Virus record (IMG/VR): IMGVR_UViG_3300030110_000215
Location: 1 to 43,280 of that record
DNA from: a virus
Reading direction: 5' to 3' (one strand)
Length of the DNA stretch: 43,280 nucleotides
The translations under genes were made by a program, and so were the position numbers. This document shows positions 8,607-32,777 of the stretch, piece by piece. Position 1 is the stretch's first letter; each line of letters starts with the position of its first letter. Below the pieces are notes generated by a model. The model saw only the letters and a list, made by a program, of their open reading frames with translations. It was not told where the DNA came from and did not search any database.

Positions 8607-8618
8607 AAATATAATACA

Positions 8619-10592
8619 ATGAAAGAAACTATACTAAAAAGATTAAAAAAATATAACATGGGGGGAATGCCAACTATGCCTGTTCAACCAATGCCAGAAA
8701 TGCTTGAGAACATGACAGGTCCTACCGGTCCTGCGTATCCTACTCTAGAACCTGGAGTTATAGCAGGAAATGCACCTAATCCTATAAGTTCTTTAATGAA
8801 TTTAGGAAAAACTATTTATAATAACAGACAAACTATTTCAAATATTTTTACACCAAAAAAAGGAGTGGATACAAGTATATTCGCAGGTAAACTGCAAATG
8901 GGAGGAGTAGAACCATTACCAGGAGGTGTGGTAGCACCTATACCAGGAAGTGATGCTGTAGAGTTTATGGGTAATAAACATAATGAGTCAGGTATGGGAT
9001 CAGATAGCGGTATTATGGTAGATCAGCAAACAGAAGTAGAGGATGGAGAAACTATGGACCAGGTTAGTATGAAACATGGTGGTAAACGTGATTATTTCTT
9101 TTCTTCTTATCTAAAGAAAGGAGGTAAGTCATATGCTGATATGCATAAAAACATTTTAGCAATGGGCGGTAGTCAAGAAGATATAAATATGCTAGCTAGA
9201 ATGCAAGAGAAAGCTGCAGGTAGAGATCCTAATCAAGTAGCTAAACTAGGAGGTGTAGTACAGTATGATACAGGAGGTGTAAATATTAATTTAGATGCGA
9301 TTATGGATCAGTATCCTACTTACAGTGAAGAGATATATAATCCAAATATCTTAACAGAACAATTACCACAGTATCAAAATCAAATGGAGTTAAGAGAACA
9401 AAGGAGACCTCCTATAGCAGAACAAAGAAGAAGAATGTTTAGAAACTTACAAACTTTTATTGATAGAGGACAAACTCTTTCACCAGAACAACAAGGACAA
9501 TATAATGAATTATCTAGTGATCCTTTTGTTACTTCTCCAGAGCTTGTAAAATTAGAGCCAATAACAATTGATGGATTACAACGTGATAATTATTTTCAAA
9601 GTTCAATAAAACCACCACCTCCACCAGTAACAAGCGTAGAGATGCCTGAAACAGAAATAACTTTACCTAAAATGTCTGAAGAAGAAATAGCTTTAGCAAA
9701 CAGTGATGCAGACACATATGATTCATACTTAGCTAGAATAGAAATGTCAGGAGAACTTCCAAATGATAGAATAGGATTATTTAAAAGAGGTATACTAAGT
9801 GAAGAGCAGTTTAATAAAAGAAAAGAAAGAGAACAAAACAGACTAGCTAGAAAATTAAATCCAGGTATGCCGCTTGAAGCTAAGATAGCAGCTGGAGTGC
9901 AATTGTTACCTGCTATAACTGCTGCATTTACAAAACCAGAAGAACTAACACAGTATGATTATGAGCCAGGTTTTACATCTCCTATAATGGCTGACAGAGT
10001 TAAAGGTCAAAAATTTGATGCTCCTACACAAGATGCAGCTAGAGCGTCGTTAGCTCGTGCTTACCAAGGACAACAAGAAAACATTGATACAGCAGGATTA
10101 GGACCTGGAAGTCAAAGTAATAGACAAGCTTTATTTGCTAAGAAGATAGAAGGTTTAGACAAGATAGGAGCAAGAGAAGCTGCGGATAAACTAAAAGCAG
10201 AGACAATGACTAAACAAAGTCAGTTTAAAGCAGATGCAATGAATGCTGCAAATGAATTAAAAGCTGCAACTATAAATGCACAGATGATACAAAAAGAAGC
10301 AATGAGAAAACAAGCTGTGGATGCTGCTAATACACAAATGGCAAATCAAGCAGAAATTGATAAGATACAAAAAAGACTTAATATTGTTACTAATCTATCA
10401 CAAAGTATTGCAGGAATAGGAGGAGATTTAATGGCATATAAATCACAGGAAAGACTAGCAAAAGCTATGGGATCTGATGGTATATACCAGAGAGATATAA
10501 TGTCTAGATATTTAAAGAGTCAAAATCCTAACATGAGTGATGATGAAATTAATAAACTTACTTTAGAAACACTAAAAAAACTAGCAAGCTAA
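8619..10592 (+). CDS. Gly/Met-rich virion protein, possible cargo protein, 657 aa
   Basis: The first 230 residues contain spaced short blocks ending in GG: YNMGGMPTMP, LQMGGVEPLPGG, MKHGGK, LKKGGK, AMGGS, KLGG and YDTGG. Between them is a conserved-looking core, PIPGSDAVEFMGNKHNESGM then GIMVDQQTEVEDGETMDQVS, which I remember from other Bacteroidetes phage genomes without a known function. Residues about 390-600 are long charged helices rich in Ala and Gln. The gene starts 12 bases after the previous stop, with an AT-rich leader, and ends in a TAATG overlap with the next gene. By position it corresponds to the cargo proteins between muzzle and RNA polymerase in crAss-like phages. I see no catalytic motif. 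Confidence 0.65.
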   Translation: MKETILKRLKKYNMGGMPTMPVQPMPEMLENMTGPTGPAYPTLEPGVIAGNAPNPISSLMNLGKTIYNNRQTISNIFTPKKGVDTSIFAGKLQMGGVEPLPGGVVAPIPGSDAVEFMGNKHNESGMGSDSGIMVDQQTEVEDGETMDQVSMKHGGKRDYFFSSYLKKGGKSYADMHKNILAMGGSQEDINMLARMQEKAAGRDPNQVAKLGGVVQYDTGGVNINLDAIMDQYPTYSEEIYNPNILTEQLPQYQNQMELREQRRPPIAEQRRRMFRNLQTFIDRGQTLSPEQQGQYNELSSDPFVTSPELVKLEPITIDGLQRDNYFQSSIKPPPPPVTSVEMPETEITLPKMSEEEIALANSDADTYDSYLARIEMSGELPNDRIGLFKRGILSEEQFNKRKEREQNRLARKLNPGMPLEAKIAAGVQLLPAITAAFTKPEELTQYDYEPGFTSPIMADRVKGQKFDAPTQDAARASLARAYQGQQENIDTAGLGPGSQSNRQALFAKKIEGLDKIGAREAADKLKAETMTKQSQFKADAMNAANELKAATINAQMIQKEAMRKQAVDAANTQMANQAEIDKIQKRLNIVTNLSQSIAGIGGDLMAYKSQERLAKAMGSDGIYQRDIMSRYLKSQNPNMSDDEINKLTLETLKKLAS

Positions 10593-13162
10593 TGGCAAAA
10601 TATCAACTACCACAATATCAATCAGTATACAGAGACACAGGATCTGTGCAGGTTAATCAGTTAAAGAGACAAATGTTTTTAGAGAACATGAAAGCAGATG
10701 ATGCATTGTCAACTTCTGTTATGAACATGGATGCTTTAGATAAAGACAAAGAACAAATGAATAGTCTTGCAGAAGTTTACAATAATAATATATCAGAGAG
10801 AGCAGCTAGAAAAGACTATGAAAACCTAGGAATGACTATTCATACAGACGCTATGAACTTTATTAAAGACTATACTCCTATTAAAAAGAGTAAAGATTTA
10901 TATACTGCATATGAAAAGATGTTATCAGAAAGAGTAGCTAAAGGTGATATAACTGATTCAATAAAACAAAGAAAGTTAGCGCAGTCTTTATCTAAATATA
11001 AAGGTATACAGAAAAGTGCAACAGGAGTTATTGATGGAGACTCATATTTTAAAGGAGCAAATGTTACTGCATTTGTAGATGTTAATGCTGAGATTCAAAA
11101 AGCAATGAAAGATGTAATACCAAGAGAAAAAGGGATTAAAGGATTTGAATTAAGAGATGGTGATTTTGATGTATTCCTTTCTTCTAGAACTATGACTGGA
11201 GATCCAAAGGCAGATGGAGCTGTTTGGAAAATTAAGCAAGGAGAAAAAATAGTAGAGGTACCAGACTATGTAGTAGAGAGTGTAACTAAGGATATTTTAC
11301 GTAGACAAGATGTAGCAGGTTTTATAAATCAAGAAGCAGATCTTAATACTTATATGTTTAGTCAAGAAGAAGCTACAGAAAAAATAAATGAATCTATTGT
11401 AAAAATAGATGAGATGATTGCTAAAATACCTAGTTTAGAAAAACTTACGGCTGACGAGAAAAAAGAAGCAATTAAATCTCAAAAAGAACTAAAAGAAAGT
11501 ATTTTAGAAAAACAAAAGACTATGAATAGTGTAGATCTTTTAAAATCTATGACTCGTAATGATTTAAACAATCAGTATATGAAGTCTGCTACAAATAAGT
11601 ATGTATATAGCAATGTATTTGTTGACAAAGATATTTCAGTAATAGATAAAGAGGGAGTTGGATCATCACAAAATAATGATCAAGTAATTCTATCAGGAGA
11701 AGTTAGTGATTCTTTAACTGCTGAAGTATTAGGAGGTAAGACTTTAAAATCTAAGAGAGCATTCCAGCTTGAATCTCAAAACTATTTAGATGAAAGAACT
11801 AGTCAGTTTGGAACTGAATTTAATAATGATATGTTAAATGCTAATACAGAAGCAGATATAAATGCATTAGCTGCAAAGTATAATTTAGTTCCTCAAGATA
11901 TATTAGCTCAATCTAAACAAGTTAAGAGACATCAAGATAATGTAGATTTAATGGAGATTCAACTAGAGGATGCAATAAAAAACGCAACAGGAGGTCAAAG
12001 TAAAGAAGAATATGACGCAGAAGTTAGTGATACTTATGCTACTAAAACAAATCCAAGATATAAGCAAACAGAAAGATTCCCTACAGATGTTGATGGTAAT
12101 ATGTTGCTTAAGGCTTTACAACTTCCTATACATACAATAGGTATGGTGGCTGATTCAAATACTGGGGAAATAATAAATAGAGGTACTGACAATCAAGCTA
12201 TTTTACCAGCTGATGCAACAGTTAAAGATGCAATGGATTGGTTAAGAGATAATGTTTCAGAACAAGATAACATGTCAACTAGTCAAGGTATACTAAAAGG
12301 ACATCCAATGCAAAAAACTTTAATGCAAGCTTTAGTTCAAGCAAATGGAATAGAACTAAAAGGTGAAACAACTGTAGCTATTCGTTATAAAAACAATGCT
12401 TTATCTGCATTAGCAGATGATAACGGTATGGTTTCTAGCGAGTATTTATCTTTAGGTGAAAGTTATTTGAGGTTACTTGAAATGTACAATAAAGACCAAA
12501 ATAAAACTGAAAAGAAAATAGAAGAGCATTTAAATACTCAACAAATTAAATTTGATAATACTATAGCTACAAGCTTTGGAGATAAGACTGAAGAAACTAG
12601 AAAAGAAATAAGAGAAACTATAGCTAAGGGTATTCCTGGAGACTTTATAACTTATACTGATGGAAGTAATGAAGGTATAAAGTGGGATGATGCAATGAAA
12701 GCAGATTATGAAGGAAAAGACTTTGAAATAGTTCCAGAATTATCAGGATTATCAAACATATCTATGATGGATGGAACTCCTCTTATGGCTATAGCTGTTA
12801 AAAGTGAAGGTAAAATTAAAATGTACAATATAAATGCTAAGCAGATTGGTATGCCTTCAGTAGATGAATATACTGCATCAACCGGTTATAAGGTACGAGC
12901 CGTATATGCTAGAGGTGAGTGGGCAAATGTAGATGAATGGTCTCCTAAACTATTTAGCTACGAAGAACAAATTGATCCAGAAGACGCGTCAAAAGGTACA
13001 CAAGAAGTTCAAGGTGTAATGTTTAAATACAATAGTGATCCAGAATTTCCTGTACACATAAGACAAAAAGATGGCACATATAAACGTATGAGTGAAAAAG
13101 CAGGATTAGAATACATTGAAAAATTTGTAGAAGAGAAAGGAATACAAAACTATATATATTAA
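10592..13162 (+). CDS. Helical virion protein, possible ejected cargo, 856 aa
   Basis: Mostly helical and charged. Residues 1-130 look like coiled coil (many Lys/Glu/Asp with regular Leu/Met). Residues 250-320 hold a second coiled-coil stretch (KEAIKSQKELKESILEKQKT). The C-terminal third appears more globular, with Gly, Trp and Tyr (VRAVYARGEWANVDEW). There is no signal peptide or membrane segment, and I recognise no catalytic motif. It is joined to both neighbours by TAATG overlaps, so the three proteins are probably made in fixed ratio. The place between the Gly/Met-rich protein and the membrane-active 1503-aa protein suggests an internal or ejected protein. Confidence 0.6.
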   Translation: MAKYQLPQYQSVYRDTGSVQVNQLKRQMFLENMKADDALSTSVMNMDALDKDKEQMNSLAEVYNNNISERAARKDYENLGMTIHTDAMNFIKDYTPIKKSKDLYTAYEKMLSERVAKGDITDSIKQRKLAQSLSKYKGIQKSATGVIDGDSYFKGANVTAFVDVNAEIQKAMKDVIPREKGIKGFELRDGDFDVFLSSRTMTGDPKADGAVWKIKQGEKIVEVPDYVVESVTKDILRRQDVAGFINQEADLNTYMFSQEEATEKINESIVKIDEMIAKIPSLEKLTADEKKEAIKSQKELKESILEKQKTMNSVDLLKSMTRNDLNNQYMKSATNKYVYSNVFVDKDISVIDKEGVGSSQNNDQVILSGEVSDSLTAEVLGGKTLKSKRAFQLESQNYLDERTSQFGTEFNNDMLNANTEADINALAAKYNLVPQDILAQSKQVKRHQDNVDLMEIQLEDAIKNATGGQSKEEYDAEVSDTYATKTNPRYKQTERFPTDVDGNMLLKALQLPIHTIGMVADSNTGEIINRGTDNQAILPADATVKDAMDWLRDNVSEQDNMSTSQGILKGHPMQKTLMQALVQANGIELKGETTVAIRYKNNALSALADDNGMVSSEYLSLGESYLRLLEMYNKDQNKTEKKIEEHLNTQQIKFDNTIATSFGDKTEETRKEIRETIAKGIPGDFITYTDGSNEGIKWDDAMKADYEGKDFEIVPELSGLSNISMMDGTPLMAIAVKSEGKIKMYNINAKQIGMPSVDEYTASTGYKVRAVYARGEWANVDEWSPKLFSYEEQIDPEDASKGTQEVQGVMFKYNSDPEFPVHIRQKDGTYKRMSEKAGLEYIEKFVEEKGIQNYIY

Positions 13163-16100
13163 TGGGCATACCTATAACAATAAATAGCGGAACTAATTTA
13201 CAAGAGCCTACATCTTCTAGTGGAGGTATAAATTTATACTATGATCCAGACATAGCTAAAAAACCTTTAGACAGAATCTCTAGAATAGATCCGTATGATA
13301 CTATAAACTTTACAAATATATACACAGATGATTTGTCTAAGTATGAGAAATACGATGTACCTACAACTAGATTTTTTAATTGGGATGATCAAAGAGCAAA
13401 AAATCAAAGCACAGGAGAAAAGTGGTTAAATGGTTTAAGTAAAGGATTAGTTACAACTGCAGGAGCTGTAGTAGAAAACACACTTGGTGTAATAGCAGGA
13501 TTAGGTGAAATGGCATTTGGCTCTGGGTATTACTATGATAATTTTATAGGGCAAAGTATAGACAAAGCTAATGATTGGATGCGTGATGCTATGCCTAATT
13601 ATAGAACACAAGCAGAGATGGATATGACTACAGGTCAAAAACTAGGTACTGCTAACTTTTGGGCAGATACAGTATTAAATGGTGTAGGATATAGTATAGG
13701 GTCTATTGCTACTATGTGGTTAACAGGAGGCACAGGGCTTATCATGAGAACTGCAGGGGCAGTAGGCAAAGCACAAAGAGCTAAAAATATATATGATGTA
13801 TCAAAAGCTATTACAACTGGTACAAAACTAGCAGACAAAACTTTTAAAGCTAGTAGAGCGCAAGGATTACTTAATTCTGCTAACATGTTAGAAATGGGAT
13901 TATATATGTCATTAGCAGAAGCTTCAGTAGAAGCAAGAGAAGCACAAAAATCAGCGTATGATGCATTAATAGAAAAAGAATTAGAAGACAGAAATCTAGA
14001 AAGAGAGTTTGAATTAGGAGATGAAGTACGTGCTGATATATTAAATGCTTCTTATGCTGCAGGTAATGCAGATTTCCTAGCACAATTACCAGTATTAGCT
14101 GGTACAAACCTATTTATGTTTGGTAAACAAGTAGCAGGATTTAACACTGCAAGAAAACTAAGACCAGACGTAGCTTTTGATAATGCTACTAAAAAAGTTG
14201 TAAATACAATAGGAGAAAGAGGTCTTTTTAGAACAGGTTTGAGCAGATTAAAACCTTTTGCACAAGGATCTTTAACAGAAGCATTTCAAGAAGGATGGCA
14301 GTTTGCGTCTAAAACAGGAGCAATAGATTATCATACAGATAAATATTTTAATGGAGGAGCTGCAGATATGAGTGAATCTATATTACATGGAATTAATGAA
14401 ACGTTTGGAACACAAGAAGGTTTAGAGTCAATGCTAGTTGGAGCAATTGTAGGGGGAGGTGTTTCTGGAGTACAGAGCGCTATACAAAAACCATATGCAC
14501 AAAGACAAAAGAATGCTAAGTATTTAACTGATTTACTAAATGGAGGGTTTTTAAGAAACGCTGCTAATAAAGGAATGACATCAAATGCTATGACACTTGC
14601 TTTAGTGCAAATGGAACAAGCAAGAGAAAGCGGTGATATAAAAGCTTTCAAAGATGCACAAAACAAACTTATAATGTACAATGCATTTGAAGCTTTACAA
14701 AATGGAGGCTTTGATGTATTTATGGAAAAGCTAGACGATGCTGCATCTTTAGAGGACTCAGAATTTGCAAAAGCTTTTGGGTATGATACTGAACAATCTA
14801 TACAAAAACAAACAGGTAAATCAAAACAACAAATAATAGATAATGCTAAAAAGAAGTATCAAAGTTTTAAAGAAACATATGATAGTATAAACGAAGCTTA
14901 TCCGCCAGCAGATAGAAAAACCGGTCTTCCTAGAATGAGAATGACAGAAGAAGAAAGAAAAGCTGAAGAAGCTGTTTATCAAGGAAGAGAAGCACTACGT
15001 GCACAGCTTATACTAGGTATGGGTAGCATAAAGAATAGAAACAGTAGATTAAAAAGCATACATGATAATATGCAAGCTTTGTTAGATAGCACAGTTAATC
15101 TAAATAATGGAAGTGTTCTAAAAGATATTTTAGCTTTACCACAATTTGGTGGAGAAAATATTTTAGAGTATAGTGCTGCAGAAGAGCAAGAAAATACTCG
15201 AAAAAGACTAAATGAAGTACTACAAGTTCTTGTAAAAAATAATGTAGACCCTGTAAAGATAGCAGACTTTAAAAAGCAAGCTCAAGATTATTTATCATTG
15301 CTAAGAGAAAATCAAGAAACTGTTGAAGCTCATATAAAACTTAGCTCAGATACTTTTGCTCAAGAACAATTTAAAGATGAAGTAGCAAAGAATGTAGAAG
15401 CTGCAAAGAAAAAAGCAAAAGATTCTAAAGATAAAAAGAATGTTGAGGAAGCTAAAACTAGTGAAGATATAAAAAATAATGTAAAAGATGCTGAAGGAGA
15501 AACAAAAGCAGATGCAGAGCAAAAGTTCCAAGATTTAAAACGTCAAGAAAAAGAAGCAGAAGATAAATACTTATCTAAAGATAAAGACTTACCTGCAAAA
15601 AATAGACTTAGATTACTTAAAGCAATAGACACATCTAATCTTAGTGACACAGAAAGAGTGGGACTAGTCAACGCTATAGAAAAATTAGAAAAGTTAGAAA
15701 AACAACAAGCAGAAAAAGAAACACCTATAGGAGAAGATCCAGATGCTCAAACTATAGCTGACATATTAGAACAAGAAGAAACACAAGAAGAGGAAGAAGT
15801 GGATGCAGTACAGCAAGAACCTGAGCCTGCAAAAAGAGAAGTTGTAATTACAGATACTAGTCAACTAGAAATATTTGACGATGTTAGTGTGGAGAATGAT
15901 AACAACGAAACTCCTGTGTTGGGGCTAGAATTAGCAGTAGATCCTACTATATGGGTAAGTGATAAGAAGGTAGGTGTAAATGAAAACGGTGTGCCTGATG
16001 GTTCTACAGGAGATACTGTAAATGGTAAGCCTATAATTATTAGTCAAGAGCCTTTATTAGGAGAGACAGAAGGAACCGAGGTAGAGTTTGTAATAATAGA

Positions 16101-17673
16101 AAATGATTTCTTTGTAGAAAATCATAAAGGTAAACCAACAGAAATTGAACAAACGCCTATTTATGTAAAGATAGGAGATACAATAGTAGGTAAACTACAA
16201 GCTAATAAGAGTGATGAGAGAAAGGCACTAGTACAAAAAATAAGAGAGACTGAAGGACAAGTAGAGATTGAACGTATACAAAACGAGGAATTACGGGGAA
16301 TGACAGATAGGTATAATAGTGAAACAGAAAGTAAAGGATCTCCTTTCTATGGAAAAGAAAAGGTTACTTACGAAGAAATGGAAAAATTATATGCAGATGT
16401 TCTTGATAGAATTAGAAAAAAAGCTAATGCTAATAAAATACTTCGTAGTAAAGGTAGAAAGACAATAACAGCTCAAGAAGTAATAGATGATATAGTGCAA
16501 AACTATATTAATAATACTCCTTTACAATCTATGCCTATAGGAAATCCTGGATTATTCTTACTAAAAGAATATATTAGAGAACAAATTGACGGAACAGCAT
16601 TATTAGGAAAAAAAGTAACTACAAAAATATCAAAAGTAGTTGCTAATAATTATAATAATGCTGTGCTTTCAGAAGCATCAAACACTAGTTACTTTTTTAA
16701 TATAAAAGATGTAATAGGTAATGGTAAGACTGAGAATGTATTATTAGCATTTACTGCAGGTACTCCTGGAGAAACAGATGTTGTACAATGGGAAGTATCA
16801 CCTGTTAGTGATGAAAAGAATCAATCAGATTTACCTAAGATACAAAGAGAAGCGCAACGTGAACAAGCAGAAGGAAGAATAGATCAAGTAGCTGTAGTTG
16901 TAAGACCGGAGAATGTGCCTGGAGGAAAAGCAAGAATATATATAACAAGTACAGCTAACTTATCTGAAGACGCACAACAAAAAGTAATTGATTTAGTATT
17001 AGAAAAAAACTATGATGCAGCTAAAGAAATTGTAGCAGCTAGTCAACAAAGAAGAGGTAATGATAATCCTAGCTTTTTAGAGTTTAACACTTTTGAAAAT
17101 GGCGATAAATACATAGTATACTACAGTCCTAAACTTAGAAAGCTTATACGTATTAATGAAACAGAAATGACAAAAGCTCTAAGTAATCCTGAGAATAAAG
17201 CTTTCTTTGATATTGTTAGTATACAAGATGAGATGTATACAAATAAAGGTAAAAGAAATACTACAGATTTAAAATTTAACTTAGGAGAAGATTTTAATTT
17301 GTTTTTAAGTAATAAAAAATATCATGTAGATAAACAACTTGCTAATAGTACAGAAGAATACTTTAGTCCTGTAGATCCTCAAAGAAGATATGATAACTAC
17401 CAAGAGTATTTATTTAGTCCTGCAGAGGTTGGAGACAGGGTAGAAGGTACGGGACATTATTCTATACTTAGTATTGACGCTGTTAAGATAGGTGAAAGTT
17501 TATTTAACAATCCTAAAGTTACATTTGAAAGAGGTAATGTAATAGGAGAAACAAAACAAGAAGTTGTAGATAAAACAGATTTAACATCTATGAAAAAACA
17601 AGTAGAAGTAAGTGCTGTAGACAAAGCTCCAAAAGGTTTTAAAGATAAATTTAACAAAAAGAATTGTAAATAA
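13162..17673 (+). CDS. Large virion protein with membrane-like segments, probable ejection/cargo protein, 1503 aa
   Basis: Residues about 93-120 (TTAGAVVENTLGVIAGLGEM), 174-204 (GVGYSIGSIATMWLTGGTGL) and 420-442 (MLVGAIVGGGVSGVQSAI) are Gly/Ala-rich hydrophobic segments that could insert in a membrane. Residues about 725-885 are a charged, almost uninterrupted Lys/Glu coiled coil, partly low in complexity (EEETQEEEEVDAVQQE type). The C-terminal part is mixed alpha/beta. It has no recognisable enzyme motif. TAATG overlaps tie it to the 856-aa protein and to the RNA polymerase gene downstream. A protein that must pass through the tail and help the polymerase into the cell would look like this, comparable in role to T7 internal core proteins. 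The function is inferred. Confidence 0.6.
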   Translation: MGIPITINSGTNLQEPTSSSGGINLYYDPDIAKKPLDRISRIDPYDTINFTNIYTDDLSKYEKYDVPTTRFFNWDDQRAKNQSTGEKWLNGLSKGLVTTAGAVVENTLGVIAGLGEMAFGSGYYYDNFIGQSIDKANDWMRDAMPNYRTQAEMDMTTGQKLGTANFWADTVLNGVGYSIGSIATMWLTGGTGLIMRTAGAVGKAQRAKNIYDVSKAITTGTKLADKTFKASRAQGLLNSANMLEMGLYMSLAEASVEAREAQKSAYDALIEKELEDRNLEREFELGDEVRADILNASYAAGNADFLAQLPVLAGTNLFMFGKQVAGFNTARKLRPDVAFDNATKKVVNTIGERGLFRTGLSRLKPFAQGSLTEAFQEGWQFASKTGAIDYHTDKYFNGGAADMSESILHGINETFGTQEGLESMLVGAIVGGGVSGVQSAIQKPYAQRQKNAKYLTDLLNGGFLRNAANKGMTSNAMTLALVQMEQARESGDIKAFKDAQNKLIMYNAFEALQNGGFDVFMEKLDDAASLEDSEFAKAFGYDTEQSIQKQTGKSKQQIIDNAKKKYQSFKETYDSINEAYPPADRKTGLPRMRMTEEERKAEEAVYQGREALRAQLILGMGSIKNRNSRLKSIHDNMQALLDSTVNLNNGSVLKDILALPQFGGENILEYSAAEEQENTRKRLNEVLQVLVKNNVDPVKIADFKKQAQDYLSLLRENQETVEAHIKLSSDTFAQEQFKDEVAKNVEAAKKKAKDSKDKKNVEEAKTSEDIKNNVKDAEGETKADAEQKFQDLKRQEKEAEDKYLSKDKDLPAKNRLRLLKAIDTSNLSDTERVGLVNAIEKLEKLEKQQAEKETPIGEDPDAQTIADILEQEETQEEEEVDAVQQEPEPAKREVVITDTSQLEIFDDVSVENDNNETPVLGLELAVDPTIWVSDKKVGVNENGVPDGSTGDTVNGKPIIISQEPLLGETEGTEVEFVIIENDFFVENHKGKPTEIEQTPIYVKIGDTIVGKLQANKSDERKALVQKIRETEGQVEIERIQNEELRGMTDRYNSETESKGSPFYGKEKVTYEEMEKLYADVLDRIRKKANANKILRSKGRKTITAQEVIDDIVQNYINNTPLQSMPIGNPGLFLLKEYIREQIDGTALLGKKVTTKISKVVANNYNNAVLSEASNTSYFFNIKDVIGNGKTENVLLAFTAGTPGETDVVQWEVSPVSDEKNQSDLPKIQREAQREQAEGRIDQVAVVVRPENVPGGKARIYITSTANLSEDAQQKVIDLVLEKNYDAAKEIVAASQQRRGNDNPSFLEFNTFENGDKYIVYYSPKLRKLIRINETEMTKALSNPENKAFFDIVSIQDEMYTNKGKRNTTDLKFNLGEDFNLFLSNKKYHVDKQLANSTEEYFSPVDPQRRYDNYQEYLFSPAEVGDRVEGTGHYSILSIDAVKIGESLFNNPKVTFERGNVIGETKQEVVDKTDLTSMKKQVEVSAVDKAPKGFKDKFNKKNCK

Positions 17674-20600
17674 TGAGTTGTAGAATAGAAAATGGTAGAG
17701 CCATATTACCTAATGGTAAAGATTCAAAACTTTTAAAAGGCCTAAGAGACGCTGTAGGTTCTAGAGCGCAAGCAGATGCTATATATGAAAGTGTGTATGG
17801 AGAAGAGTTTAAAAAATTCTATGGGTTTGATTTTGAAAAAGAAGGCATAACACAAGTAGAAAGATTTGCTAATAACCTAGATGAAAACAATGAGCCTAGA
17901 CTGTTTGCTGGTATAGGTATATATGAGTTTATAAATAACAAATTAAAAAGTTTTCCTGTTGCTCTATCAGATAAACAACAAAACAAAATACTAGATTTAA
18001 ATAGAACAGAGGCAGAAAATGCAGAGATACAATCAGAACTTATAAATACTCTTATAGGATTTACAAACAACTTAAAAATAAAAGCAGGTGTTGATAATGC
18101 TGATATTATATTTAATACACTAAAAGATAAAACTTTATTAGCAGCATTTAACAATACTATAGATATTGAAAAAGCTAAAGAGTTATTTAGAACTCTTAAC
18201 ATGGGTGAGAATGGTTATGATAACTTTGTAAAAAAGATAGAAGAAGAAAACATAAGTTTAGCACCTATGTTTGATGTGTTTATTAGTGCTTATGATCAAT
18301 GGGAATCTACACAAGATGCGCTAGGTAATATACAAACTATAGGCGTTAGAGATATACTAAAAGACAGCTTCTCTAGATATAACATGAGGCTAAGAGACGG
18401 CTATTCTTTACTAGAGGAGATAGATGATGAGTATATAAGAATATATAATAACTCTAGGCTAGAAGACAATCCGCAAAATAAACTATCATCAAAAGCAAAA
18501 GCTATTATAAGTAACATTGTAGTAGGTGAAAATAGTTTAGGGTATCCTGAGACATTACCTACAGATAGAGTCTATGCTATTATAGCAGAAGCAGCTGTAG
18601 GTCAACCAGACTTTGATGCAATGATTTCTAAACTAGATTATTACTCAGAGTATAAACCTGAAGTAAAAGAGATTGTAAATAAATTACTAGCATTAAAGCC
18701 TGGAGAGAAAGCAGCTATCTTCTCTGCTTTTAAAAATACATATAAAAAGTTTTTACTATTTAAACAAGAAGCAACTGATGGTGGATTTAGAAATGTAATT
18801 ATAAATTCTAATCAAAGCAATGTAGCTATAAAAACTAGAAGAGACTTTAGAGATAATGCTGTACAATACACAATTGAGAATCCTAGAGCTGTGTATATAT
18901 CAGATAAAGATAAAATATCTGTAAAACCTGAAAAAGTAAAACGTATTAGAAAAGCATGGGATATTGTAAAAAAAGCGCAAGGGCAAGCAGAATGGACTGA
19001 TCAACAATTAGATGCTTTAGGTGTATATCTATGGGAACTAGGTATGAATTATGGTCCTACACTAGAAAGCACACAAGAAAACATAAAAAAGTACTATACA
19101 AAGGGTAATGAATCTAGAATAAAAGAAGGAGATTTATTATCAAGGTTTGTATTTGAGCCTAATAAGAACTTTGAAAAACTAATACTAAGTTTAGAAAATA
19201 ACCCTAGTGATAATTTTCATGACGCAGAAGGAAGTATAGTACAAAAGATTGCAGACATTGCTATACTATTTGATAGTAAGCCTTTTGGAACTTTTATTAG
19301 CGGTACAAATAAACAGTACTATCCTGTAAATTTACCAACAGCACTAGATGAACTAACAGAACTATTTAATGACCCTAATCAAGTCTTTGAATTAAAACAG
19401 TTTGTAAAAAGCTTAGGAGAAGATCCGTTGTTTAACCCTGGACAAACTAAATACAAGTCTATATTGTTAAGAGCACTTACTAGTAGTAAAGGTAATGCAA
19501 GAGAAAACTTTATAGCATACATATTAGATTCTTATAAATCTGCTACCCAAGATGCTGTAGATTACAATTCTCAAAACGATAAGACATCTCTAAAAGAAAG
19601 ATTAATAGGTTATATAAACAGAGATAGTAAGTACTCTTTATCTGCAATACATATTCAAGCAGATCGTAGACAAATGGGATTTGTGCAAGTGCCTAAAATG
19701 TCTGAACTGTCTTCTTTTGGTATTACATTAAGTAGACAAGAAATAATAGAAGGGTTAATAATACAAGACTTATCTAGAATAAATCAAGCAAGAAAACTTA
19801 TAAGAAGTAAAGATGAGTCTAAGTTTATAGAAGGCTATCATTACAAGCCAGGGTCTAGTAAATATGCAATGGACGGATCAGTATTTACAATGACACAAAT
19901 CTATGGACTTGAAGATACAGATTTAGGAGGAGAGTATATGTCTGATTTAGTAGAAGACTTTGTAGCAGGAGTACCAAATGATTTATTTACTAAACTATTA
20001 GGAGAAAAAGTATCACAAGTAGAACAAATGCTAGAAAAGTTTGAAGAAGAATTACAAACTGAGTTAGTACAGTTTGATATAAAATTAATTAAAGATGTAA
20101 GTTCTAATTTAGATACTGATGCTAAAAAATTAAAGTTTGTTAAAGACTTTGTTTTTAATGAATTTGTAAATAGAATAGAAGTTACAAAGCTATTACGTAG
20201 TGGATACTCTTTTGCAAAGGACTCTGCAGATTTTTACAAACGTATGGGACTTGTAAATACACCTGGAACTAAATTAGCTATACAAGGATTTGATCAAAAC
20301 GATACGCAATATGGTATGATGCCACAGTATAATGGATTAGTAATAAAAGATTTTGATTATTCCGATAAAGATAGATCAGACCAAGTTGTAAAAAATCTAA
20401 TAGCTAACGGACTAGATCCAAAAATAGCTGGTTTATATTTAACTACAAACAAATCAGATGCACAATCTTTTATTAGTGTAGATATGTACCGCGGGATCAT
20501 GCAAGGTATGGGTAACTGGACACAAGAAGATGAAAATGCATATAAAGTATATTTACAAGGAGGTGGTTATAATAGACCGGTTGTTCCTCTAAAGCCATAT

Positions 20601-23600
20601 CATGAACAAACAAATGTAAAGAATGGACTTAGTACTATGCATATGGACAAGAACTCCTATACTGTAGTTACACCAGAGCTAGCTGCAGACTTTCCGTATT
20701 TACAAAACATGCTTGATGCAATGCGTAATGACAATATACATGTAGTGCACACAGAAAGCGCAACAAAAGGAGCTAGGTCTAATGTGCAAGACTTTCAAGC
20801 TACAGGTGTTCTTGATGTTAGTAATCCTACAGTATATGATTCTACTAAACTTAGGTTTCCACAGATGATACCTGTAGATGAAAAAAATACTATAACATTT
20901 AATAGACAACTTAGAAAGAACATAACTACAAATGTTATAAGAGACGGTCAGTATACTATTGATGGTAAAACAATGTCTGGCGCTGAGGTACAAAAACTAC
21001 ATGATGAATCTATAGCAGGAAATATAAAACAAGACACAGAAAGAATAGAAAAAGAGTTAGGAATAACTAAAGTAAACAGAATAAAAAATAAAGAATCTGT
21101 AGAACATAAAGAAGCTAAGTTAGCGCATTTAAAAGCTCTTAGATCTAGAATAGAAAAAGAAATTGCTGAGAGAGACCTACCGCAAAACTATTTAGATGGA
21201 TTAGATATTATACCTAATGGTCCATTTGATTACAAATTTAGAGTACCACTAAGTTTCCCAAACTTTGCAGCTAGATTTGAAACAATTGTAGCAGGTATAT
21301 TTAACAAAGAAATATATAAACAAAAACTAAAAGGACAAGAAGCGGTACAGATAGCAGAACTAGGAGGCCATAGTGTTAGTGGAGAGTTAAGAATGTATGA
21401 TGGACAAAATGGAGGAGCAGAAGTTAGAATAAAAGCTAGTACTCTTGGATTTACAGCAGAAGAAATAGAAGGTAAAACCGCTGCAGACTTTGCAGGAGAT
21501 CCTAGATTAGAGTTTATAGGTTATCGTATACCGCAACAAGGTAAGAGTTCTTCTATGGTGTTTAGAGTTGTTGACTTTTTACCTGAGTCTCATGAAAAAG
21601 CTATTATGGTTCCTGGGGCTCTAACAATACAACAAGGTAGTGACTTTGATATAGATAAGTTAAATCTTATATTCAAAGAAGTAGGTGAACTTAATGAAAG
21701 ACAAAAAAGAAATAATAATATATATGAAGTATATAAAGGAATTATACTAGATCCAAAACACTTGACAGAAGTTATGACCCCTGTTGCTAACGAAGAGTTA
21801 AAAGACTTAGCTAGAATTGTTGGTGATGTAGATGCTAGTGTAAATTATAACAACCCGCTGACTGAACTTAAGATGGAAAATAGACAGAAGATGGGTATAG
21901 CTGGTAGAGGATTGCATTCTAATATTATTAAAGGTAGAAACACAGCAGAAAAACTAGGAATTTTATCAGTAAGATCTGACTTTGCTCCTGTTATAGAAGG
22001 AAATCCTATGATGTTTATACAAACAAATGATTTAAAAGGTAACTTTACAGACGCTAATATATCACAATACCTATCAGCTGCAGTAGATGCGGCAAAAGCT
22101 CCTATACAAATAGATATAAACGATAATAAATACACTATACCTGTAACCGGTCTTTTATTAAGTGTAGGTGTTCCAATAGAAACCGTGGTATACTTTTTAT
22201 CACAGCCTAGTATTAAACAGTTAATAAAAGAAGCAGAGCTAAATGATGTAGGAGAAAATAAATTAGTAGAAAAAATTGATACAAAAGAAGGTGTAAAAAA
22301 TATGACTCTTGCACAATTAAAAGAGGGATCTATACCACAAGAAGAGATACTAAGAAACTTTGCTATATTCCATAGAGCTGGTAAACAAATGCAAAGAGTA
22401 TATAAGATAATTACTCCAGGTGATATAGATAATGTAAATGAATTATCTGCTATAAATGCATGGATAGATGAAGAAACTTTCTTTTTATATAATCAAGACA
22501 GTGTAATACTAGGGGCTAAAGATTATATAACACATCAGCAAGGTAGTAATAAACCTTTAAATGCAATGGGCATCGCTTATAGAGGAGTACTAGATACTAT
22601 AATAGATAATACTAATCAGTTAGGATTTTTACAGAACACTAATGCATTTAAACAAGCAAAAGAAAACTTAAAAACATCTTTAGGTATAAATATTCTTACT
22701 GCTGCACAACATAAATTTATCGATAGAGCATTATATGGGGCGTTAATGACACAGCCTAATAGTCCTTTAATGATAAATATAGGAGATAATGTAGGATTAC
22801 TATCTAGAAGAGTAATTAGTGCTTTATACAACCCTCAAAGCAAAGATAATATAGTAGTTAAAACTAGAGAGATAGCTCTTAAACATCCTAAATTAAATGA
22901 CAATCCATTCTATAGACTATTAAGAGAAGATCCTAGTAACAAAGAAACCGGTATAGCTAGAATACAATTTGATACTGGTATAAATTTATCTGTAGCAGAT
23001 AAGAATGATTTAAGTAATGCTTTGTTACGTATAATAAAAGACCCAAACCCAGAGATAAGATCTTATGGTAAACTTTTAGTAGCAAATCAATTTTTAACTA
23101 GCGGATTCTTTCCTACATATGGTAGTTATATAGACTTAATACCAACAGAAGTTCTTACAACAGACCTAATAAACCCAGGTAATGGAAGTCCTGTAGAGTT
23201 TTTTGAGCAAGAAATAACACAACTAGTTGCTCCTGATTACTTAGGTTTTAGTAACTTTACACACGAGTTTGTAAGAAACTATGGTACAAGAAGACCTGGC
23301 GGACAAAATTTATTAAGAGTTGTAAAAGTGCCTGTAAAAAATCTAGACTATGGGCAAATTACTTTTTCTGATTTTGACTCACAAGTATACGATGAACAAA
23401 ATGGATATGTACAGTACTTTAAGTCTAGAGCAGGTACAATGTATGTGTACATAGGAGGATCTACTTACCAACAACTAGAAGCATTAGGTGTAGAAAATAA
23501 AGTTGCAGAAATAGGAACTTCTAATTTAGTAACAGATAGTGTGTTTCAGCAAAATAGAAGCAAAGTTAAAACAACAGATAAACCTGTAGATGGATATATA

Positions 23601-23666
23601 CAAATGACTCCAGATGTAATAAAAGAAGATAACGAAAATGATGACCCAATAAAAGTTTGTAAATAA
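17673..23666 (+). CDS. crAss-like virion RNA polymerase (single-chain, two-barrel type)
   Basis: 1997 aa. Residues 1324-1328 are DFDID inside TIQQGSDFDIDKLNLIF, preceded by a conserved stretch YRIPQQGKSSSMVFRVVDFL. This is the Mg-binding aspartate motif of the double-psi beta-barrel RNA polymerases related to YonO and to Cellulophaga phage phi14:2 gp66, the structurally solved crAss-like polymerase; the usual cellular form is DFDGD. The length and the motif at about two thirds of the chain agree with a single-chain enzyme. Such polymerases are packed in the virion, ejected, and transcribe early phage genes. The gene starts on a TAATG overlap and ends directly before the ATG of the zincin-containing gene. 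I could not pick out by eye the lysine of the second barrel. Family assignment is fairly sure; specificity is unknown. Confidence 0.85.
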   Translation: MSCRIENGRAILPNGKDSKLLKGLRDAVGSRAQADAIYESVYGEEFKKFYGFDFEKEGITQVERFANNLDENNEPRLFAGIGIYEFINNKLKSFPVALSDKQQNKILDLNRTEAENAEIQSELINTLIGFTNNLKIKAGVDNADIIFNTLKDKTLLAAFNNTIDIEKAKELFRTLNMGENGYDNFVKKIEEENISLAPMFDVFISAYDQWESTQDALGNIQTIGVRDILKDSFSRYNMRLRDGYSLLEEIDDEYIRIYNNSRLEDNPQNKLSSKAKAIISNIVVGENSLGYPETLPTDRVYAIIAEAAVGQPDFDAMISKLDYYSEYKPEVKEIVNKLLALKPGEKAAIFSAFKNTYKKFLLFKQEATDGGFRNVIINSNQSNVAIKTRRDFRDNAVQYTIENPRAVYISDKDKISVKPEKVKRIRKAWDIVKKAQGQAEWTDQQLDALGVYLWELGMNYGPTLESTQENIKKYYTKGNESRIKEGDLLSRFVFEPNKNFEKLILSLENNPSDNFHDAEGSIVQKIADIAILFDSKPFGTFISGTNKQYYPVNLPTALDELTELFNDPNQVFELKQFVKSLGEDPLFNPGQTKYKSILLRALTSSKGNARENFIAYILDSYKSATQDAVDYNSQNDKTSLKERLIGYINRDSKYSLSAIHIQADRRQMGFVQVPKMSELSSFGITLSRQEIIEGLIIQDLSRINQARKLIRSKDESKFIEGYHYKPGSSKYAMDGSVFTMTQIYGLEDTDLGGEYMSDLVEDFVAGVPNDLFTKLLGEKVSQVEQMLEKFEEELQTELVQFDIKLIKDVSSNLDTDAKKLKFVKDFVFNEFVNRIEVTKLLRSGYSFAKDSADFYKRMGLVNTPGTKLAIQGFDQNDTQYGMMPQYNGLVIKDFDYSDKDRSDQVVKNLIANGLDPKIAGLYLTTNKSDAQSFISVDMYRGIMQGMGNWTQEDENAYKVYLQGGGYNRPVVPLKPYHEQTNVKNGLSTMHMDKNSYTVVTPELAADFPYLQNMLDAMRNDNIHVVHTESATKGARSNVQDFQATGVLDVSNPTVYDSTKLRFPQMIPVDEKNTITFNRQLRKNITTNVIRDGQYTIDGKTMSGAEVQKLHDESIAGNIKQDTERIEKELGITKVNRIKNKESVEHKEAKLAHLKALRSRIEKEIAERDLPQNYLDGLDIIPNGPFDYKFRVPLSFPNFAARFETIVAGIFNKEIYKQKLKGQEAVQIAELGGHSVSGELRMYDGQNGGAEVRIKASTLGFTAEEIEGKTAADFAGDPRLEFIGYRIPQQGKSSSMVFRVVDFLPESHEKAIMVPGALTIQQGSDFDIDKLNLIFKEVGELNERQKRNNNIYEVYKGIILDPKHLTEVMTPVANEELKDLARIVGDVDASVNYNNPLTELKMENRQKMGIAGRGLHSNIIKGRNTAEKLGILSVRSDFAPVIEGNPMMFIQTNDLKGNFTDANISQYLSAAVDAAKAPIQIDINDNKYTIPVTGLLLSVGVPIETVVYFLSQPSIKQLIKEAELNDVGENKLVEKIDTKEGVKNMTLAQLKEGSIPQEEILRNFAIFHRAGKQMQRVYKIITPGDIDNVNELSAINAWIDEETFFLYNQDSVILGAKDYITHQQGSNKPLNAMGIAYRGVLDTIIDNTNQLGFLQNTNAFKQAKENLKTSLGINILTAAQHKFIDRALYGALMTQPNSPLMINIGDNVGLLSRRVISALYNPQSKDNIVVKTREIALKHPKLNDNPFYRLLREDPSNKETGIARIQFDTGINLSVADKNDLSNALLRIIKDPNPEIRSYGKLLVANQFLTSGFFPTYGSYIDLIPTEVLTTDLINPGNGSPVEFFEQEITQLVAPDYLGFSNFTHEFVRNYGTRRPGGQNLLRVVKVPVKNLDYGQITFSDFDSQVYDEQNGYVQYFKSRAGTMYVYIGGSTYQQLEALGVENKVAEIGTSNLVTDSVFQQNRSKVKTTDKPVDGYIQMTPDVIKEDNENDDPIKVCK

Positions 23667-26600
23667 ATGGCGTGTAAATATTATGATAAAAAAACCGGAT
23701 TAGTAAATGAGTTACTTACTGATCTATATGGTTATATGGATACAGTACAAAACAAAAATGTAGACTCTGTATATAAAATATTAAAAAAACATCGTATAGC
23801 TACAAAACGTAATGACATTATGTATTTAACATTACCTAATGTTAATTATAGCCTAAGAGAGTTTAAAAGAATAGAAAGAAAACATCCAGGACTTTTTTCT
23901 ACTGAGTATATAAAAATGACTCCTAGAAGCATATATTCTGAAGCTGCTCCCCTATACTCACTAACTATAAATAAAAATGTTTTAGAAAACATAAATCCTG
24001 AAGGTACAGCTAATGCAGATATTAGCACAACAGACCCGGTTGACATAGATCAATATGTTAGATTTATTGCAGGTGCTGAAAGAAATACAAGAGATTATTA
24101 TCTAGATGAAATAGCTAGAAGAGAAAATACTAGTAATAGTAAGTTTTCTGCTATGGAAAAAGAGGATATGGAGAATGTATATAGAGTTAGTAATGAACTT
24201 AAAAACTCTTTTGCAAAAGCTGGAGTAACTGTAGATGTTATATTTGATACTAGCATAGATAATATAGGACAGGTAGATCCTGCAGAGCTTGGTATGAATC
24301 CTACAATAAGGATAAATCCTCTAAAGGTTAGAAAAGATACAACATATCATGAGTTTGGGCATATATACATAGACTTATTAGGTGTAAATCATCCTATTGT
24401 TGCACAAGCTATAGCAGAACTAAGAGATACAGATTTATACTATCAGGTAAAAGAAGCCTATCCAGAATTATATGGTGAGTTATTAGATAAAGAAGTACTA
24501 GCTACAGCAATTGGATTAGAAGGAGCAAAAATAGTTAGAAAAAATCCAAACAAATTACAAAGAATACTTAATAGATTGTTTAGAGCTATTGGCAAATTGT
24601 TTGGCATAACTCCAAATACTGCAGCAAGACTTGCAGAAGAAATGTTTGCAGGTAAATTAAGGAGAGATAGCATGATCAATCCTCTAAGCTCTTATATACA
24701 GGCAAGTAAAGAAGAAGTTAAATTAAAAGAACTTGTAGATGAAGCAAGAGTTAGAATAAACTCTGAGATATATGAGCTAAATCAATTGCCAGAAGACCAG
24801 GTAAGTCCAGAAGAAAAAACTACTTTATTAAGATTAGAAAATAGTTTACAAAGAGTAAGAAAAGTAGAAGACTTATTTAAACTTGTAGATGCTATGGGTG
24901 GTGCATTAGCTAGAGCTAAAAGTAATTATAGAAATATAATGGAACTACCAGAAGCAGAAAGAGGGACTACAGCTAACTTAAATAAAATGTGGGCTCTAAA
25001 AAAGACACTAGATGGATTAGAAATGTTTTCTAGTATTAAAAGCTTATTGTTAGCTACTAAAGATAAAGGTAAAATACAAGACTTAGATGCATTTGATAAA
25101 TTAGAAGATAGAGTAAATGAAATTATAGATCAAGCTACAGTGCTAGATAATGATTTTAAAGATGATATTATACCAGTATGGGCACAATCTGTAATAGGTT
25201 TATCTAATAAAAATTTACCAGCTGAAATACAAAAACTTATAGATAATATAGAGAAGAATAAAAGACTAGTAGGCCCTGATACAACAGACATTGCATGGGT
25301 ACAACTTACTGAAAGATATAATAAAGGTCAGATTACAAAAGAAGAGTTAACAGAAAAGAGACTTAAATTAAATGTAGAACAGTTAAAACAAAAGCAATTA
25401 CTAAATTATGGTGATCTTGTAAAAGAACTAACAACTGCACATAAAGATAAAAGTGGTTATTCTTTTTACTTTGACCCTATTGTTTATTCTAGTGATAGAG
25501 GTATACAACTATTAGTTAAAGCAGTACAACAAGCTAATTTAGAAAAGAATGACCTAACACTAGATCTTAAGTCTAAGCTAGCACCTGTCTATGATGAGTT
25601 TGCAGCTGGTCAAAGTGAATCTAATGTAGAAAAATTAAATGATGACTTATTAGAAGAGGTAACTATAAACGGTGTAAAAAGATTAGCGCTTGTTAATCCA
25701 ATTGACCAAGAGAGGTACTATGGTGATCTTAGAGATTATAAAAAACAACTAGACGAAAAGTATAGTAAACCTAAGCCAGCTGATTTTAATGATGACATGG
25801 AATTATATAAAATAGAATATGGTAAATGGATAGAAAGCAGTAAAGGTAGAAACTATCAAAGAGACATAGTTACATGGAATACTGACAATAGTACTCCTAT
25901 AGAGGGATGGGAAAAAGAATTAAAAAGAGTAAGAGATGAATTAAAGGTACAGCAGTCAATACTTAAACAACTTAAAGCAAATGGTTTTGAAAATACAGAC
26001 TCATATCTAAACGCACAAATAAATAGAGACCAGCTAAATAAATTTTTAAATAAAAATTATATAAACGGTAAACCTGCAGGTGATTGGGTGCAACCAGACC
26101 CTAAAGTATATACTAATGCTAAGTATACAGCTATACAAAATGATCCTAGATTAAAAAAATACTATGATTTTGTATTACAAGAGTTTCAAACAGCACAAAG
26201 AATGATAGGTGTAAATCGTATGGATAAAAATACATGGGATAAATACTCATATTTAATGCCAACTTACAGAAAAGAAGACTATGACAGAGCAAAAGAAAAT
26301 GGTACTTATAACACTATAAAGGATATGCTGCAAGACGGGTTTACTATACAAGAAACTAATCATGATTATTATACCTATAATCAAAACAACAAAGACATAG
26401 AAAAAAGAGTCCCTGTTTACGCTACCAACAGGGTTCCTGCTAGAGAAGTCTCAAAGGATATAGCTAGTAGTTTATATAGATTTAGACACATGGCACATAA
26501 CTTTAAAACTAAAAGTGAAATATTAGGACAAGTTATGATATTTCAAGAAATATTAAAGAATGCAAAAACTTTAGAGACCAACTCAGCAGGTATACAGCTA

Positions 26601-28055
26601 ATACAAAAAGCTGCAGAAAGTATGGGTATAAATATGCCTAAACTAAAAGAAGGTGAAACCTATAACTTTAGACATGTAAACGAATGGATAGACTCTGTAA
26701 TGTTTGGACAGTCTAATTTACAAAAAGACTTTACAGTATTTGGTAAAACATTTTCTGCTAATGAAGCAGTAGGGACAATAAATGCATTTACAGCAATGAG
26801 CACGTTATCGTTTAACTTACTACAAGGGGCTAACCAGTCTATATTAGATAATATGATGATGCTACAAGAATCATTTGCTGGACAGTTTTTAAGTAAATCT
26901 GATATGGCATGGGCAAAAGGAAAGTACTGGGGATCCGGTATGGCTATGACAGATATAGGTAGATTTGACCCAAAGAGTAAAATAGCAAAGGCAGTAGAGT
27001 ATTTTGATGCGCTTACAGAATTTACAGATACAGAAGGAAATCAAATAGTAGGAGGTAAAAGAAGAAAAGCAGCAAGAACCGGTAATCTATTGTTTTTACA
27101 ACAAGCAGCTGAACACGAACTATCCGCTACTAGAATGCTAGGACTAATGAAAAACCTTGAAGGCACACTAAAAGACAGTGATGGTAATGTAATACTAAAT
27201 GAAGAGGGTAAACCAGCTAACTTATATGATTTACTAATAGTAGATGAAAAAACCGGTAAGATGTCAATAGATCCTAGACTCGATGAGAAGCAGTCAGGAT
27301 TTAATAGGTTAGATTTTATAACAAAATTACAAGGATTAAGTAGAAGGACTAACCAGATAAAAGGTAAGATGCATACTAATATGCTACAAAGAAGATGGTG
27401 GGGTAAACTGTTTATGTTATTCCGTAATTGGATGCCGCCTGGAATTAGAAGAAGATATGGACACGGTGGTGGATCTACAGTGCATGTAGATGAAGAGTTA
27501 GGTGCTGTTACACAAGGTATGTATGTATCGTTTTGGAATTTTGTTGCAGAAAGTATATCAACTAAATCTTTTGCATATACTAATATGACTGAAATGGAAC
27601 AACAAAATGTTAAAAGAACATCTGTAGAACTAGCATCTTTAATGGGAGCTATGGCATTAGTAGCAGCGTTATCTAATTTAGATGATGAAGAAGAGTCATG
27701 GGTAAGTAACTTTGCTTTATATCAAGCTAAACGATACCAAACAGAGATCCTACAATGGACACCGCTAGTAGGTGGAAAAGAAGCATTTAGAATACTACAG
27801 TCTCCTACAGCAACAGCTAGACCAATACTAAAAGGTGGTGAGTTGTTAGGACAAATGATAAGCGAAGTTAGATATGTATTAGGAGACCCATTCATTGATG
27901 ACTCTGCTATTTTTTATCAAAGAAGAACAGGTAGATTCCAAAAGGGAGACCGTAAAATAAGAAAAGATTTCGAAGATTTATTACCAATATTTAGAGGCTT
28001 ACAAAAATCAAGAACACCCGAAGAAGCTTATAAATGGTTCACTACCTTAGAGTAA
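23667..28055 (+). CDS. Giant virion protein with N-terminal zincin metalloprotease motif
   Basis: 1462 aa, starting right after the stop of the polymerase gene. Residues 228-232 are HEFGH (in TTYHEFGHIYIDLL), an HExxH zinc site, and E276 in LLDKEVLATAIG is a good third ligand, so it looks like a gluzincin-type peptidase. Residues about 340-720 are long charged helices. Residues about 1040-1080 are hydrophobic/amphipathic (INAFTAMSTLSFNLLQGANQ). Residues near 1240-1275 contain the unusual segment LFMLFRNWMPPGIRRRYG, and residues about 1325-1345 are a possible membrane segment. No signal peptide. The gene lies at the end of the virion block and overlaps the lipoprotein gene by 22 bases. A virion-borne protease could mature cargo, open the host envelope, or act on host proteins; the sequence does not say which. 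Confidence 0.7.
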   Translation: MACKYYDKKTGLVNELLTDLYGYMDTVQNKNVDSVYKILKKHRIATKRNDIMYLTLPNVNYSLREFKRIERKHPGLFSTEYIKMTPRSIYSEAAPLYSLTINKNVLENINPEGTANADISTTDPVDIDQYVRFIAGAERNTRDYYLDEIARRENTSNSKFSAMEKEDMENVYRVSNELKNSFAKAGVTVDVIFDTSIDNIGQVDPAELGMNPTIRINPLKVRKDTTYHEFGHIYIDLLGVNHPIVAQAIAELRDTDLYYQVKEAYPELYGELLDKEVLATAIGLEGAKIVRKNPNKLQRILNRLFRAIGKLFGITPNTAARLAEEMFAGKLRRDSMINPLSSYIQASKEEVKLKELVDEARVRINSEIYELNQLPEDQVSPEEKTTLLRLENSLQRVRKVEDLFKLVDAMGGALARAKSNYRNIMELPEAERGTTANLNKMWALKKTLDGLEMFSSIKSLLLATKDKGKIQDLDAFDKLEDRVNEIIDQATVLDNDFKDDIIPVWAQSVIGLSNKNLPAEIQKLIDNIEKNKRLVGPDTTDIAWVQLTERYNKGQITKEELTEKRLKLNVEQLKQKQLLNYGDLVKELTTAHKDKSGYSFYFDPIVYSSDRGIQLLVKAVQQANLEKNDLTLDLKSKLAPVYDEFAAGQSESNVEKLNDDLLEEVTINGVKRLALVNPIDQERYYGDLRDYKKQLDEKYSKPKPADFNDDMELYKIEYGKWIESSKGRNYQRDIVTWNTDNSTPIEGWEKELKRVRDELKVQQSILKQLKANGFENTDSYLNAQINRDQLNKFLNKNYINGKPAGDWVQPDPKVYTNAKYTAIQNDPRLKKYYDFVLQEFQTAQRMIGVNRMDKNTWDKYSYLMPTYRKEDYDRAKENGTYNTIKDMLQDGFTIQETNHDYYTYNQNNKDIEKRVPVYATNRVPAREVSKDIASSLYRFRHMAHNFKTKSEILGQVMIFQEILKNAKTLETNSAGIQLIQKAAESMGINMPKLKEGETYNFRHVNEWIDSVMFGQSNLQKDFTVFGKTFSANEAVGTINAFTAMSTLSFNLLQGANQSILDNMMMLQESFAGQFLSKSDMAWAKGKYWGSGMAMTDIGRFDPKSKIAKAVEYFDALTEFTDTEGNQIVGGKRRKAARTGNLLFLQQAAEHELSATRMLGLMKNLEGTLKDSDGNVILNEEGKPANLYDLLIVDEKTGKMSIDPRLDEKQSGFNRLDFITKLQGLSRRTNQIKGKMHTNMLQRRWWGKLFMLFRNWMPPGIRRRYGHGGGSTVHVDEELGAVTQGMYVSFWNFVAESISTKSFAYTNMTEMEQQNVKRTSVELASLMGAMALVAALSNLDDEEESWVSNFALYQAKRYQTEILQWTPLVGGKEAFRILQSPTATARPILKGGELLGQMISEVRYVLGDPFIDDSAIFYQRRTGRFQKGDRKIRKDFEDLLPIFRGLQKSRTPEEAYKWFTTLE

Positions 28056-28604: not shown

Positions 28605-28635
28605 GGGGGTAGCAAAAAGGGGGCAATACCCCCTT
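28605..28635. terminator. Bidirectional G5/C5 hairpin between convergent blocks
   Basis: The 47-base gap between convergent genes holds two G5 runs and one C5 run. AAGGGGG (28617-28623) pairs with CCCCCTT (28629-28635) over the loop CAATA. On the minus strand this hairpin is followed by a run of Ts (CCCCCTTTTTG), a good intrinsic terminator for the replication block; on the plus strand it is followed by AATTT, weaker. Alternatively GGGGGTA (28605-28611) pairs with TACCCCC (28627-28633). Confidence 0.75.
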
Positions 28636-31896: not shown

Positions 31897-31916
31897 ATTT
31901 TATATTTAATTGGTTA
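31897..31916 (-). promoter_or_regulatory. TAACCAATTAAA leader ahead of RIIB-like gene
   Basis: The stop codon of the radical-SAM gene is part of the motif TAACCAATTAAA, followed by an A/T-rich run and the ATG. The same core stands before the zinc ribbon, RIIA and, slightly changed, exonuclease genes. It may be an A-rich translation enhancer or a phage promoter element. Confidence 0.5.
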
Positions 31917-32777
31917 AAAAATGTACCTTATAGTATTCCAAGGCACTTTGCTTTCATGTATCTGTCTAAACTGTTTAATATATTTAGACTTCTCTCCAAG
32001 TTTGTAGCGTACGTTTTCTCCACCATACTGTGATTTTTTTATCTCTTGCTTATCAATAACCCATAGATCTACTTCTGTCTCTGGATGTCTATCTAAGTTT
32101 ACAGTATGCTTTTTAAAGTTGTGTGTCAAAAATATACACTCTGCTAAAACTTGATTTTTGTAACTTACATAATCATTCATCATATCAAATATATACTCAT
32201 AGTCTTGTAACCAACCATCGTATACAATAATAGGACTGTAGTTTACATGTACATCATAACCGGCTTCTATAAATGCATCGATAGCTTTTATTCTGTCAAT
32301 GATCTTAGATGTACCAGGCTCATGTAAATCTGACTTATGTTGTGGCATTAGACTAAATCTAATACGTATTTTACCTTTAGGGTCAAAGTTTATTAACTCT
32401 GGGTTTACAAATTTAGTTGCAAAGCTACCCATAGCTACAGGATGATCTCTAAAGAACTCGAATATCCTTTGCCAATCATGATATTTAGCATGCAACGCAA
32501 AATCTTCGTTACAGCTAATATCATAAGTGGTATATTCTGCATGGGTCTGATTAGGTTTATCTACTGGTGTAAAATACGCATGATTATTAATCTCTGTTAA
32601 TATATCACCGGTGTTTACAGCAATAGACAAACCTTTATCTTTATGACGTTTCATATAACAGTAAGAACAATTATACAAACAGCCATACCCAAAACTAGGA
32701 GATATAAAATCCGTAGATCTACCCGAAGGCCTTATCGTGAACGTTTTTCGTACATCCTTAGTTATTAGTTTTCCCAT
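31914..32777 (-). CDS. Radical-SAM protein of the spore photoproduct lyase type
   Basis: 287 aa. C33, C37 and C40 in GYGCLYNCSYCYMKR form the CxxxCxxC site for a [4Fe-4S] cluster that cleaves S-adenosylmethionine. Further blocks fit the SPL group: KIRIRFSLMPQ, then EPGTSKIIDRIKAIDAFIEA and GYDVHVNYSPIIVYDGWLQD. Spore photoproduct lyase reverses a UV thymine lesion; SPL-like relatives outside spore formers have mostly unknown substrates, so repair of phage DNA or a base modification are options. Its start lies within the end of the RIIA gene (13-base overlap), and its stop opens the RIIB leader, so it is embedded in the RIIA-RIIB cassette. Superfamily is certain, substrate unknown. Confidence 0.82.
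   Translation of the reverse strand: MGKLITKDVRKTFTIRPSGRSTDFISPSFGYGCLYNCSYCYMKRHKDKGLSIAVNTGDILTEINNHAYFTPVDKPNQTHAEYTTYDISCNEDFALHAKYHDWQRIFEFFRDHPVAMGSFATKFVNPELINFDPKGKIRIRFSLMPQHKSDLHEPGTSKIIDRIKAIDAFIEAGYDVHVNYSPIIVYDGWLQDYEYIFDMMNDYVSYKNQVLAECIFLTHNFKKHTVNLDRHPETEVDLWVIDKQEIKKSQYGGENVRYKLGEKSKYIKQFRQIHESKVPWNTIRYIF

Follow-up and report, generated by a model that had tools for sequence, protein, structure and literature searches.

The RNA polymerase (RNAP) of phage phi14:2, gp66, is translocated and transcribes the early genes of the phage (PMC7886860), and gp47, gp49 and gp50 of crAss001 have been described as RNAP-associated cargo proteins that are found in virions (PMC10172136). 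In phi14:2, the annotation of the gene run g067-g066-g065 is based on MS/MS proteomics. The stretch of DNA analysed here (the window) is a virus record of 43,280 bp, and its plus strand carries, at 17673-23666, an ORF that starts with ATG, stays open for 1997 codons and encodes a product of 1997 aa. This product is almost certainly the large single-chain virion RNAP of crAss-like phages, a divergent but ordinary member of a family whose structure is already known. An identical polymerase (100%) is encoded on a 69,489 bp contig (IMGVR_UViG_3300030109_001534, G001), which reaches further upstream than the window.

An earlier note on this DNA had located a DFDID motif at residues 1324-1328, within GSDFDIDK and after YRIPQQGKSS, and had proposed a crAss-like single-chain RNAP. 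Both statements hold. The motif, in QGSDFDIDKLNLIF, is encoded at 21642-21656 (+) and begins 31 residues beyond YRIPQQGKSS (residues 1284-1293; 21522-21551, +), which is conserved in the family, with R1285, P1287 and S1293 invariant in the alignment of 24 crAss-like RNAPs. When the protein was compared with solved structures by phmmer, by far the best match was phi14:2 gp66 (6vr4; E=4.5e-32), in an alignment containing the same GSDFDIDK. Profile comparison with hhalign, in which the window protein and four close relatives were set against six Steigviridae-type RNAPs, aligned 1523 columns covering residues 265-1887 (E=2.3e-50); no counterpart was detected for the N-terminal 264 residues (1-264) or the C-terminal 110 (1888-1997). 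Pairwise identity to the characterised enzymes is about 23%, and no Pfam or PHROG family matched the protein. A tblastn search against named phages returned 118 records, and the matches listed were to crAss-like or related phages such as the Flavobacterium Fpv phages; identity was under 60% in every one of them and 21-32% in most. Relatives are common in public virus contigs, being encoded in 455 of 600 pattern-matched stretches.

The reading frame is kept in relatives at 62-79% protein identity, with one exception, L006 (IMGVR_UViG_3300001450_000045), in which the frame breaks at 15349, near the 3' end, and the remainder continues in another frame, either through a sequencing error or as a real change. 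Among 24 aligned crAss-like RNAPs, the three aspartates D1324, D1326 and D1328 (gp66 D1361, D1363 and D1365) never vary, and the same holds for K974, K993 and K1032 (gp66 K1012, K1027 and K1065). The triad and these lysines are also invariant in a 63-row alignment of diverse sequences, down to about 20% identity. The earlier note had called for a search for the lysine of the second barrel, and the three lysines, with K993 encoded at 20649-20651 (+) and K1032 at 20766-20768 (+), are the candidates for it that the alignments provide. A further lysine, K1475 (22095-22097, +), is invariant in all 23 RNAP rows covering the position and aligns with gp66 Lys1615, which is the trigger-loop lysine and matches the catalytic His of cellular RNAPs (PMC8713982).

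The core of the protein (residues 724-1664) was modelled with AlphaFold2 without templates, from 63 sequences in an alignment of crAss-like RNAPs only, giving a pLDDT of 88.7 and a pTM of 0.86. When this model was searched against the PDB with Foldseek, it matched 6vr4_A (E=4.5e-32, TM 0.74, rmsd 4.8 Å) and nothing else at E=0.001; the weaker matches were cellular and phage two-barrel RNAPs, including the phage enzymes P74 gp62 (8f5m) and gp64 (8f72) at E of about 0.04-0.05. In a search of predicted viral structures, the top-scoring hits that carry a name were crAss-like phage proteins. The model is rich in strands around DFDID, whose loop immediately precedes one of them, and again in an earlier part of the chain, where the lysines are found. 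On the basis of secondary structure and of the overall match, rather than of residue superposition, the DxDxD triad is predicted to sit in a beta'-like barrel (DPBB-A, approximately residues 1218-1334; 21324-21674, +), and a second, beta-like barrel with the conserved lysines is predicted in the same chain (DPBB-B, approximately residues 974-1102, opening with K974; 20592-20978, +). The comparison with gp66 that the earlier note had proposed therefore came out in its favour: it had named a fold lacking double-psi barrels, or a DFDID in a non-barrel loop, as fatal to the idea, and the strands around the motif and the match to 6vr4 point the other way.

The earlier note had also taken Ile in place of Gly within the motif as the mark of the crAss-like branch. 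This is only roughly right, in that 19 reference crAss-like RNAPs have Ile (12) or Val (7), and never Gly, directly behind the second Asp, with the Gly side of the comparison resting on one outgroup, P23-45 gp96, which carries DFDGD (PMC10770324). Ile itself is not diagnostic. It was considered as a special mark of the window RNAP and rejected: gp66 has DFDID too and the references have Ile or Val, which makes Ile a trait held in common. In L037 (IMGVR_UViG_3300030419_003799), a relative with 51% identity, the motif is DFDFD. The count of 107 out of 108 for DFDID was left out of this question, since DFDID was part of the pattern used for that search.

The ATG of the RNAP gene overlaps the stop codon of the upstream gene (13162-17673, +), which encodes a 1503-aa putative cargo protein similar to crAss001 gp47 (blastp E=4e-18) and phi14:2 g067 (E=1e-4). 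Downstream, at 23667-28055 (+), is the gene for a 1462-aa RNAP-associated protein similar to crAss001 gp49 (E=1e-30) and phi14:2 g065 (E=7e-28). The three genes are collinear with phi14:2 g067-g066-g065 and correspond to crAss001 gp47, gp50 and gp49, an indication that this set of three RNAP cargo proteins is conserved outside the three families under comparison as well. Further upstream are genes for a tail tubular protein similar to phi14:2 g072 (1419-2303, +; E=5e-17) and a large virion structural protein in the position of phi14:2 g071 (2303-7543, +; phrog_15100 E=2e-64, with a weak match to g071 at E=0.005). The cassette ends at a hairpin (28617-28635, +; AAGGGGGCAATACCCCCTT), a possible terminator between converging cassettes, facing a replication module on the minus strand. 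Within the window, a gene at 31914-32777 (-), located between a RIIB-like gene (30727-31896) and a RIIA-like gene (32765-35506), matches spore photoproduct lyase (PF20903, E=9e-29), and its product could possibly serve phage-borne repair of UV-damaged DNA.

A search for an early-promoter motif common to the intergenic regions of three contigs (the window, G001 and a further contig, G002) turned up no convincing candidate; the highest-ranking word, AAACCAATTAA, occurred in three upstream regions and was only weakly enriched compared to shuffles. Sigma-70-like sites were at chance level, and an Rfam search of the window gave no match.

Taken together, we put at roughly 90% the probability that the window protein is a crAss-like two-barrel RNAP that is packed in the virion, ejected with the DNA and used as the early-gene transcriptase. 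The homology, the active-site residues, the predicted fold and the gene order were computed here. Activity, packaging, injection and early timing are inferred from relatives, packaging and early transcription from the orthologues in phi14:2 and crAss001 and the synteny with these phages, whose proteins have been detected in virions. The two double-psi barrels would meet at the active site, where the three aspartates of DFDID would bind the catalytic Mg ions. Lysines would come from barrel B, with K974, K993 and K1032 as candidates, and K1475 could act as the trigger-loop lysine contacting the incoming NTP. The RNAP would most likely be made late and packed into the capsid with its two flanking cargo proteins, and then be ejected with the DNA and used for the transcription of early genes.

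An active two-barrel RNAP could instead be made after infection for the middle or late genes and never enter the virion, as with P23-45 gp64. Non-virion phage enzymes of the same fold do exist (PMC10770324). However, the gene lies inside a cassette collinear with phi14:2 virion proteins, its orthologue is present in crAss001 virions, and in structure it comes closest to the virion enzyme gp66, whereas 8f5m and 8f72 reach only E of about 0.04-0.05; we therefore consider this improbable. Another possibility, given how fast this family evolves (PMC7886860), is that the protein keeps the RNAP fold as structural cargo and has lost catalysis. It is very improbable, since the Asp triad, the barrel-B lysines and the trigger-loop lysine, that is, every active-site residue tested, are kept, and the frame is intact in several relatives.

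A motif of five residues such as DFDID could also arise by chance in an unrelated large phage protein, and the lack of a Pfam or PHROG match could be read in this way. This is contradicted by the homology over most of the length of the RNAP and by the predicted fold. The conservation of the frame in relatives and the invariance of the aspartates in both alignments likewise show that DFDID is not there by chance, leaving this explanation with a negligible probability.

The virion RNAP reading fits a crAss-type genome. G001 encodes a TerL (phrog_6681, E=2e-134) and a portal (phrog_6547, E=8e-67), both of crAss type, and its TerL matches are mostly records of crAss-like and related Bacteroidota phages; with both proteins in the same genome, the phage would, on sequence, belong to the Crassvirales, although no major capsid protein was recognised in the stretches covered. 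The portal of G001 is present as two ORFs of 397 and 323 aa (10649-12864, L139), which match successive parts of phrog_6547. In the RNAP tree and in a reduced TerL tree, the window clade lies outside Steigviridae, Intestiviridae and Suoliviridae. Its deep position is uncertain, because the RNAP tree, whose deep branches are weak, splits phi14:2 from its own family, Steigviridae, and several references are missing from the TerL tree; both trees compare the clade with these three families and not with Crevaviridae, epsilon and zeta. The window, L003-L006 and L029, and more distantly L037 and L039, may tentatively be regarded as an undescribed family-level crAss-like lineage with a compact, unfused RNAP, at somewhat under even odds. 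If so, it could offer a simpler model for the packing, unfolding and injection of a two-barrel RNAP.

Other contigs gave further observations. In bajarodcaudo virus 1 (PQ006092.1, L027), the RNAP gene is interrupted within the catalytic motif (GSDFD / VDKMY) at 8171-9066; the insert resembles a group I intron and carries a LAGLIDADG endonuclease. Disruption of the RNAP inside the DxDxD motif is known to occur in zeta crAss-like phages (PMC7886860). A 1.05 Mb contig of an Aenigmatarchaeota MAG, labelled as an archaeal chromosome (CP070801.1, L121), contains a crAss-like RNAP fragment at about 920-938 kb, a location that could reflect an assembly or binning error. Three contigs from MAGs binned as Neisseriaceae (L131, L132 and L133) have ORFs of 3,956-5,163 aa with GSDFDID or GADFDID.

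Compared to the known systems, the window RNAP shares with P23-45 gp96 and gp64 and with YonO-like RNAPs the single chain, the two barrels and the DxDxD motif, but it differs from gp96 in having DFDID instead of DFDGD, and its only significant structural match in the PDB is of the crAss type. The fused crAss RNAPs of Intestiviridae and Suoliviridae have the same catalytic core but carry it within chains of about 3,500-5,800 aa, whereas the window RNAP is unfused. All three crAss001 cargo proteins have counterparts in the window, but crAss001 has DFDVD and encodes gp47 on the strand opposite gp49 and gp50, in contrast to the three tandem genes found here. With phi14:2, the window shares the gene order and, in gp66, the single chain with two barrels, the identical GSDFDIDK, the barrel-B lysines and the trigger-loop lysine; the two enzymes nevertheless have only about 23% identity and fall into separate lineages in the tree, and the distance from the catalytic loop to the next invariant Asn is 20 residues in the window RNAP (N1348) compared to 113 in gp66 (N1478). 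The novelty is modest, consisting of this shorter spacing, the unfused three-gene cassette and a lineage unplaced among the three crAss-like families. The picture of how crAss-like RNAPs work is unchanged; the family of virion polymerases is extended to a divergent lineage, in which the residue-level map of the Asp triad, the three invariant lysines and the trigger-loop lysine still holds.
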